Positions 16,095 through 62,464 of a DNA stretch of 64,000 bases are shown piece after piece. Location of the stretch: NCBI GenBank assembly GCA_947491935.1, contig CANLLF010000001.1:496001-560000 (forward strand), written 5' to 3'. This DNA is from an uncultured Roseicyclus sp. (lineage in GTDB: Bacteria; Pseudomonadota; Alphaproteobacteria; Rhodobacterales; Rhodobacteraceae). The position numbers and the translations under genes were made by a program. Within the stretch, counting starts at the first letter, position 1. The number at the start of each line of letters is the position of its first letter. The notes beneath the pieces were generated by a model that saw only the letters and a program-made list of their open reading frames with translations, made no database searches and had not been told where the DNA came from.

Positions 16095-16184
16095 TGGCGG
16101 AGGAGGTGGGATTCGAACCCACGGTACGCTTTCACGCACGCCGGTTTTCAAGACCGGTGCATTCGACCACTCTGCCACTCCTCC
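16095..16184 (-). tRNA. tRNA-Ser (anticodon TGA)
   Basis: Reverse complement GGAGGAGTGGCAGAGTGGTCGAATGCACCGGTCTTGAAAACCGG...GTTCGAATCCCACCTCCTCCGCCA: 7-bp acceptor, long variable arm, encoded CCA. Confidence 0.95.
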
Positions 16185-53421: not shown

Positions 53422-53508
53422 TGGTGCGCTCGGCGAGACTCGAACTCGCACGGGAGTTACCCCACAGCGACCTCAACGCTGCGCGTCTACCAATTCCGCC
53501 ACGAGCGC
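53422..53508 (-). tRNA. tRNA-Leu (anticodon GAG)
   Basis: Reverse complement GCGCTCGTGGCGGAATTGGTAGACGCGCAGCGTTGAGGTCGCTGTGGGGTAACTCCCGTGCGAGTTCGAGTCTCGCCGAGCGCACCA. Confidence 0.95.
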
Positions 53509-60781: not shown

Positions 60782-61049
60782 CCCGCCCGGCAAATTCTTC
60801 CTGTTCCGCTAATCCATTCTTAACCCAACCGGCGGATAAAGCCCTCGGTCGACCAGGCAGGTCCCGGGGCAAAGCCCGCATCTGCCACCCAGGATCTTTG
60901 AGCGTTTGCACCCGATCCGCGCCCCCAAAGGCCAAGATCGGGTTGGACATTCCCTCGCGCATTCTGTCCCATCGGGGTCTTTGACACAGGCCCCTTGCAA
61001 ACCGGTCCGCCCCTGGCGGCGCCGCCTCTTTTACAGAGAAACCCACGCC

Positions 61050-61086
61050 GATTCCTGCAAATCGGCGGGATTTCGAAAAATCGGTG
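61050..61086. promoter_or_regulatory. Two overlapping operator-like repeats upstream of the 7TM-AraC gene
   Basis: GATTCCTGCAAATCGGCGGGAT (61050-61071) and GATTTCGAAAAATCGGTG (61069-61086); resemble 62231-62251. Confidence 0.55.
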
Positions 61087-61155
61087 CGTCAGCCGCACAG
61101 CCATGCGATAAGCTGCCTCCCAACCGATGTGGATGTCTACAAGGGGAAGGCCGCG

Positions 61156-62232
61156 ATGGAGTTTCTCGATCTTGCCATGCGCGGGGCCTCGATCAGCCTC
61201 CTGATGCTGCTCGCGGGCCTGCTTTGGCGTGCGCCCATCGGGTGGGAGGGCCGTATCTCGATCCTCGCAGTCGCCGTCACGAAATCCGCGATGCTCCTGA
61301 GCTACGCCGCCCTGCCCCTCGATCTGCCGCCGCTTGTCACCGCCAACTTGGTTCTGTTCTCCAGTCTCGTGCCCAACGCGATCACCTGGCTGATCGTGAC
61401 GATCTTCCTCGACCCGCCCGGCCGACGCTGGCCGTGGCTCGTCGCCTCCTCCGTGGTGTCGGCGCATTTCTATCTGCATCAAACGGCGCCGGATTGGGTG
61501 ACGCTTGTGCCCTGCGCGGCCAGCGCGACGCTCCTGTACGGCGCGCTGTTCGGCTTGGCGCTCTGGTCCTCCCGCGACGATCTGGTTGAGTGTCGCTGCC
61601 GCGCGCGGCCGGGTTTCGCAGTGGCCATCGCGGGGCTCGGGCTGGTTCTGACCGGCGTGCAGGCGCTTGGCGTGATGGATCCGGGGTCTGTCTCCTTCGC
61701 GCTTCTGCAATCCGCGGGCGTTCTGGCCGTGACCACGGCATTCGCGGTGTGGATCCTTGCGCCAAATATCGATCTCTGGCCCGGTGCCCACGATCACCCG
61801 GCCCCGGCCCCGCGCGCAAGCACCAGCCATCCAGATGCCGCCCTGATTGCGCGCGTACGGGCCGCCATGGCCGAAGGCATCTGGCGGGAAGAGGGGCTGA
61901 CGATCGGCGCGCTCGCCGCCCGGCTCAGCGTGCCGGAGCATCGCCTGCGCCGTGTGATCAATGGCGGGCTGGGACATCGCAACTTCTCAAGCTTCATCAA
62001 CGCCCATCGCATCGCTGCCGCCAAGACACAGCTTAGCGATCCGGAGGCGGAGGGCACGACGGTTCTGGAGATTGCCTATGACGTGGGCTTTGCCTCCCTC
62101 GGGCCGTTCAACCGCGCCTTCCGGGCGGAGACCGGGCAAAGCCCGACGGAGTTCCGGCGCGCGGCCCTGTCGCCCCCGACCCACGGCGCCGATTCCGAAC
62201 ATCCCGCGCCGATCCCGGCAAATCTGCACTGA
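61156..62232 (+). CDS. Membrane-anchored AraC family transcriptional regulator
   Basis: About seven hydrophobic segments, then AraC HTH: EGLTIGALAARLSVPEHRLRRVINGGLGHRNFSSFINAHRIAAAKTQL...VLEIAYDVGFASLGPFNRAFRAETGQSPTEFRR. Confidence 0.88.
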   Translation: MEFLDLAMRGASISLLMLLAGLLWRAPIGWEGRISILAVAVTKSAMLLSYAALPLDLPPLVTANLVLFSSLVPNAITWLIVTIFLDPPGRRWPWLVASSVVSAHFYLHQTAPDWVTLVPCAASATLLYGALFGLALWSSRDDLVECRCRARPGFAVAIAGLGLVLTGVQALGVMDPGSVSFALLQSAGVLAVTTAFAVWILAPNIDLWPGAHDHPAPAPRASTSHPDAALIARVRAAMAEGIWREEGLTIGALAARLSVPEHRLRRVINGGLGHRNFSSFINAHRIAAAKTQLSDPEAEGTTVLEIAYDVGFASLGPFNRAFRAETGQSPTEFRRAALSPPTHGADSEHPAPIPANLH

Positions 62233-62251
62233 TTTCTGAAATCGGACGGAT
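62231..62251. promoter_or_regulatory. Operator-like motif upstream of the small secreted peptide gene
   Basis: GATTTCTGAAATCGGACGGAT; contains GATTTC-T-GAAATC palindrome; matches repeats at 61050-61086. Confidence 0.55.
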
Positions 62252-62271
62252 CGCGCGGCGCGAGCATCCCA

Positions 62272-62300
62272 TCCTGATGGCATCACGCAACCCATCAGGA
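62272..62300 (+). promoter_or_regulatory. Leader stem-loop overlapping the Shine-Dalgarno sequence
   Basis: TCCTGATGG (62272-62280) / CCATCAGGA (62292-62300), perfect 9-bp stem, 11-nt loop; 3' arm contains most of the AGGAG at 62297-62301. Confidence 0.6.
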
Positions 62301-62308
62301 GATCTTCC

Positions 62309-62464
62309 ATGCGCCCTCTCATCCTTGCCGCCCTTGCAGCCACCGCGCTCAGCGCGCCACTTGCGGCTCAGAGCATCGCGTTTCCGTCACTCACATTCCC
62401 TGAGCCGGGCACGTTTTGCGGCCCGCTGCAACTCTGCACACCGGAGGTGACCCGCAGCAATTAA
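62309..62464 (+). CDS. Small secreted two-cysteine peptide (51 aa), not in the supplied ORF track
   Basis: MRPLILAALAATALSAPLAAQSIAFPSLTFPEPGTFCGPLQLCTPEVTRSN; signal peptide, AGGAG 7 nt before ATG, TAA at 62462. Confidence 0.65.
   Translation: MRPLILAALAATALSAPLAAQSIAFPSLTFPEPGTFCGPLQLCTPEVTRSN

Follow-up and report, generated by a model that had tools for sequence, protein, structure and literature searches.

Comparative analysis of a 64,000-nt stretch of DNA (hereafter the window) from a 4.65 Mb Rhodobacteraceae genome whose nearest match is Roseicyclus indicates that a gene for a seven-helix (7TM) AraC-type regulator and the gene for a 51-aa exported peptide behind it are a genuine, conserved and uncatalogued unit in marine Rhodobacteraceae. 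We judge it reasonably probable that this unit works as a one-component membrane switch that regulates its own gene and one dedicated target, with a read-through lock, and that its product is an exported envelope effector. For a wider proposal we see roughly even chances: Alphaproteobacterial 7TM-AraC activators would use one cassette, made up of a tandem operator, a -10 element at a fixed position and a transcription start within an inverted repeat that hides the Shine-Dalgarno sequence, to drive an exchangeable envelope gene insulated from read-through, and in Rhodobacteraceae this gene would encode a new exported micropeptide of the P-x-L-T-W/F/Y-P kind with probable kin under TetR.

The regulator gene and its partner

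The regulator gene (61156..62232, + strand) encodes 358 aa, and its product is 97% identical to an AraC protein of an uncultured Roseicyclus. ATG 61156 is the best reading of its start, because similarity to relatives begins there; an alternative GTG-started frame at 61084 is longer and would be translated through the operator. The HTH_18 model matches with E=7e-17 (Pfam; 61.9 bits, curated cut-off 33.6), the second AraC-type HTH model in the HTH_18/HTH_AraC test reaches 33.6 bits at a cut-off of 26.6 (Pfam), and an AraC HTH was matched in 38/38 relatives of the regulator (Pfam). AraC DNA-binding domains were also the top-ranked matches in a fold search. The AlphaFold2 model (mean pLDDT 87.8) consists of seven long helices (residues 2-24, 30-49, 59-84, 88-110, 114-138, 145-171 and 179-200) followed by the HTH (domain at residues 228-338), so that the roughly seven hydrophobic segments originally noted in front of the AraC HTH are borne out by the seven TM helices predicted and by the significant HTH_18 match. 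Provided that the C-terminal HTH faces the cytoplasm, inspection puts loops that carry conserved basic residues (e.g. ~142-151) on the cytoplasmic side. The 7TMR-DISM model PF07695 matched two of the 38 regulator relatives (best E 0.0066) and did not match the window protein. Homology of the 7TM half to rhodopsin/GPCR proteins was considered and rejected, as the fold matches were weak, generic for 7TM proteins and had E >0.03.

CadC is a membrane one-component regulator, and ToxR, TcpP and CadC are each built from one TM helix and a winged helix. The window regulator resembles these three proteins in the fusion of a membrane-embedded sensor to a cytoplasmic DNA-binding domain, but differs from them by its seven TM helices and its AraC HTH. 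ToxR and TcpP likewise belong to the membrane one-component regulators (PMC8546550).

Behind the regulator gene, the ORF at 62309..62464 (+) translates into MRPLILAALAATALSAPLAAQSIAFPSLTFPEPGTFCGPLQLCTPEVTRSN, a 51-aa product with a signal peptide (residues 1-20) ending in an A-x-A type site and a mature part containing FPSLTFPEPGTFC-x5-C. It is preceded by the Shine-Dalgarno sequence AGGAG (62297..62301, +), and the short ORF with a signal peptide and a strong Shine-Dalgarno sequence is thus present as the original prediction described it; the cysteine spacing given there as C-x6-C has to be corrected to C-x5-C (C37 and C43). As judged by inspection of the alignment, the basic start, the hydrophobic core and the A-x-A cleavage site are kept across relatives. 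Full-length open homologues, each with a short signal-peptide N-terminus, were found in 11/13 genus genomes and also in several other genera. Their dN/dS values (Nei-Gojobori, whole ORF) are 0.05-0.26 in every genus pair computed, and 0.03-0.17 for the mature part with the exception of two pairs, namely the closest pair, with almost no changes, and one with saturated dS. Because of the open homologues and the low dN/dS, we take this ORF to be a real gene and not a chance frame; stops or frameshifts in relatives and an identity confined to the DNA level were looked for, and neither was found. In agreement with the initial remark that no family was recognised for the peptide, Pfam and NCBIfam returned none at E up to 1.

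The pairing itself is stable. In ten of the 11 genus genomes that have the peptide, its gene lies directly behind araC with YqeY on the other side, and in a scan of named genomes every araC with an identity of about 57% or more was followed, across genera, by the peptide gene at a distance of 74-80 bp. The pair was found in Roseicyclus, Tateyamaria, Zongyanglinia, Shimia, Roseibacterium and MAGs, and two loci from two other genera (L063 and L064) carry it without the YqeY/DUF2244 neighbours of the genus. Strong peptide matches (E<=2e-13) occur in six of 397 family genomes, all six with an AraC relative; many weak family-wide matches rested on the signal peptide alone and were left out of these counts. 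The cysteines are missing in the versions behind more distant AraC relatives (Nioella, Amylibacter, Roseovarius). In consequence, a disulfide, if there is any, is not essential.

A further genome (G199) carries the peptide gene between DUF2244 and YqeY with araC absent there, and a search of this genome with the operator model gave zero matches. Despite the loss of araC, its peptide is under purifying selection, and hence the peptide is retained without this regulator. G199 groups with genomes carrying both genes (support 0.85, short alignment). In G201 and G202 neither araC nor the peptide is found in this interval.

Operators and predicted promoters

At both promoters, the operator consists of GATT(T)..AAATCGG boxes repeated in tandem at a spacing of 19-21 bp. 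The araC gene is preceded by two GATT..AAATCGG boxes with a spacing of about 19 bp (61048..61088, +), which are conserved in relatives, and a three-box operator (62189..62250, +; CCGATT 62189, CCGATC 62209, CTGATT 62229) overlaps the araC 3' end and is kept in all loci with a Cys-type peptide and araC. A degenerate operator pattern applied to 18 genomes was too unspecific, and a sequence-only operator model (R1) was used instead. The best R1 match in the own genome is 62209-62245 (E=6.6e-8), the site upstream of araC has E=3.5e-7, and these are the only two credible sites among the best 150 of 2715 first-look candidates that were scored, a selection by which weak sites may be missed. A third match (9e-4) falls within the coding frame of an electron-transfer-flavoprotein dehydrogenase-like protein and was not accepted as a site.

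The predicted -10 elements of araC (TAAGCT, 61109..61114, +) and of the peptide gene (CATCCT, 62270..62275, +; predicted start about 62282) both follow the operator tail by 26 nt. With operator anchors hand-set for 16 of the divergent loci, this offset is a single peak for the -10 of peptide and other target genes (44 loci; 0/1000 shuffles reach the score), and it is again a single peak for the -10 of araC (14 lineages; mean score 5.04, next -2.34; 0/1000 shuffles). Due to the fixed 26-nt offset, the operator tail takes the -35 position, which corresponds to a class II activator layout. The system shares with the AraC/XylS class II activators a two-HTH DNA-binding domain, a tandem direct operator that has a spacing of about 20 bp and overlaps the -35 and, as a prediction here, autoregulation, but the sensor half of the window regulator is a seven-helix membrane bundle without an accepted Pfam family.

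This layout predicts that AraC auto-activates its own gene and activates the peptide gene. The araC -10 hexamers are near consensus across lineages (e.g. TATATT, TAAGAT, TATCTT) and the peptide -10 is poor, so that the peptide gene should depend more on the activator. In G199, an extended -10 (TGGTATGAT) is found at the place matching the peptide promoter. The closeness of operator and promoter would also suit an AraC that represses both promoters, or a pair that is merely adjacent with unrelated regulation of the peptide. We regard either arrangement as very improbable, since the class II activator geometry recurs at two promoters and since the poor CATCCT is replaced by the extended -10 where araC was lost.

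An inverted repeat over the Shine-Dalgarno sequence

Just before the start codon of the peptide, an inverted repeat covers or encloses the Shine-Dalgarno sequence in most loci. In the window, its 5' arm (62272..62280, +) is located upstream of the predicted transcription start and its 3' arm (62292..62300, +) covers the Shine-Dalgarno sequence. The arms vary by species yet pair, as in TCCTGATGG/CCATCAGGA (window), TCCAATCA/TGATTGGA (L033) and TCCTGTCAT/ATGACAGGA (L037). Compared with dinucleotide shuffles, the peptide leaders fold with a mean z of -1.99 and all 23 loci are below 0; the mean z is -1.76 for the leaders of other slot genes and -0.09, that is to say absent, for araC leaders. By a simple criterion, the leaders of L133 and L139 have no clear uninterrupted stem. 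From the operator tail to the loop centre the median distance is 44.5 (IQR 41-46.5). As the -10 occupies +26 to +31, the start is predicted at about +38, where the loop begins, and the proper message would then lack the 5' arm.

This placement is most simply explained by a read-through lock, in which the inverted repeat probably silences read-through from araC. In the mechanism that we propose, the 7TM half of the AraC protein would sense the state of the inner membrane or a hydrophobic molecule, and the cytoplasmic HTH would bind the tandem operator, whose tail overlaps the -35, and activate two promoters of the same geometry, its own and that of the peptide gene, as suggested by the conserved anatomy. 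RNA reading through from araC would carry both arms, so that its Shine-Dalgarno sequence would be hidden and the peptide untranslated. RNA begun at the peptide promoter, with its predicted start inside the inverted repeat, would lack the 5' arm, would be unable to fold and could be translated. According to its signal peptide, the product would be exported and probably act as a periplasmic or envelope stress effector, and in other Alphaproteobacteria a lipid-modifying enzyme or another exported protein takes the same slot.

A comparable arrangement is described for sigG of Bacillus subtilis, one gene behind spoIIG, where a hairpin of 20 or more pairs has been proposed to hide the ribosome-binding site and so block read-through translation, and cannot form from PsigG (PMC5942855). 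In the window, too, the stem hides the Shine-Dalgarno sequence; the 5' arm would lie upstream of the start if transcription begins where the fixed-offset -10 predicts it. In contrast to sigG, the stem is short, changes in sequence and is kept across Alphaproteobacteria behind one regulator family.

Because the start site of the peptide gene is a prediction only, the main rival to the lock is a leader RNA element: the regulator and its target would be the same, but the hairpin would be a true element of the leader (a thermometer or the target of an sRNA or protein), with transcription starting upstream of the 5' arm. A stem of changing sequence that covers or encloses the Shine-Dalgarno sequence in most loci is what such an element would look like. 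Nevertheless, we consider it unlikely, given that the -10 sits at a fixed offset inside or beside the 5' arm, that the operator tail fills the -35 and a start upstream of the arm hence needs another promoter, and that the leader had no Rfam match in the eight sources scanned. Within the window, two tRNA genes (16098-16184 and 53425-53508 (-)) are the only Rfam matches.

Exchangeable slot genes and probable kin of the peptide

More distant AraC relatives in Caulobacterales, Hyphomonadaceae, Sphingomonads, some Rhodobacterales and others are followed by other genes, with a similar box in front of these. Of ten slot genes searched against Pfam, three encode fatty-acid hydroxylases (PF04116), and an N-terminal sequence pattern common to these enzymes recurs in most of the other listed slot genes. 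The slot is also held by DUF2147, Acyl_transf_3, beta-lactamase-like and UrcA proteins. UrcA (TIGR04433) and FA_hydroxylase (PF04116) genes stand in the identical regulated slot as the peptide gene, following the operator and a member of the same AraC family, but their sequences are unrelated to the peptide. PF04116 genes in the slot behind 7TM-AraC relatives are located at L163:3736-4539, L146:3978-4832 and L126:4075-4851, and UrcA-family slot genes at L153:3926-4312 and L174:3909-4325; in some lineages, UrcA proteins may thus be under the control of this AraC family. In Candidatus Rhodobacter lobularis, the operator is followed by a small lipoprotein-like ORF that begins with MTRIVAFTLLAATLTACTG (L171:3993-4300; L070 is the same locus).

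Besides, many genomes from many genera of Rhodobacteraceae encode small exported peptides that share a P-x-L-T/S/D-W/F/Y-P core, and the gene directly following is that of a conserved TetR regulator. Examples of the P-x-L-T-W/F/Y-P kind are L004:1501-1680, L230:1501-1662 and L232:1501-1695, and more are present in L259, L261, L262, L264, L265, L271, L275-L277 and others. Aligned as mature-part profiles, the peptide and the TetR-linked group score 18.9, compared with <=10.6 in 40 column-shuffled controls; since the hhalign probability of this match is just 27%, we regard the TetR-linked peptides only as probable distant kin of the 51-aa peptide. TGAAC-N6-GTTCA boxes are visible in several TetR-linked leaders. 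The folding of these leaders (mean z -1.05) was not counted as the same hairpin, as their inverted repeat is mainly the TGAAC-N6-GTTCA operator. In the genus of the window a TetR relative exists, and no peptide of the TetR-linked kind was seen before it. Upstream of a TetR relative, a 91-aa exported protein with a good Shine-Dalgarno sequence is encoded at L287:1072-1344 and L284:1075-1347 (reverse-complemented locus); it is present in the genome of the window and in its closest relative, and its similarity to the 51-aa peptide is not evident. Searches of an open literature collection gave no relevant report on AraC regulators of the 7TM or membrane type, on fatty-acid hydroxylases together with AraC or on TetR together with small secreted proteins.

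These data also bear on the original proposal of a signalling or stress-response pair, of which the pairing of a membrane AraC protein with an exported small peptide proved real and conserved. An exported peptide that is tightly linked to a membrane sensor and co-occurs with the AraC relative in the family could be the ligand or the brake of the 7TM sensor in a signalling or feedback pair. This role is unsupported and appears quite improbable to us, because G199 keeps a constrained peptide without araC, the slot elsewhere holds unrelated membrane enzymes and the probable distant kin adjoin TetR. The stress or envelope role fits better, and based on the signal peptide, the 7TM sensor and the slot mates, our best guess is an envelope-related effector under membrane-state control.

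In this way, the 51-aa ORF becomes a member of a widespread, uncatalogued family of exported micropeptides, for which a regulator, an operator, a promoter and a start site can be predicted. Our analysis also suggests a 7TM-AraC sensor class with a dedicated target slot that has repeatedly been refilled with envelope-related genes, and the slot contents give a handle on what this sensor detects. The proposed read-through lock, in turn, would represent a regulatory design that recurs in Alphaproteobacteria.
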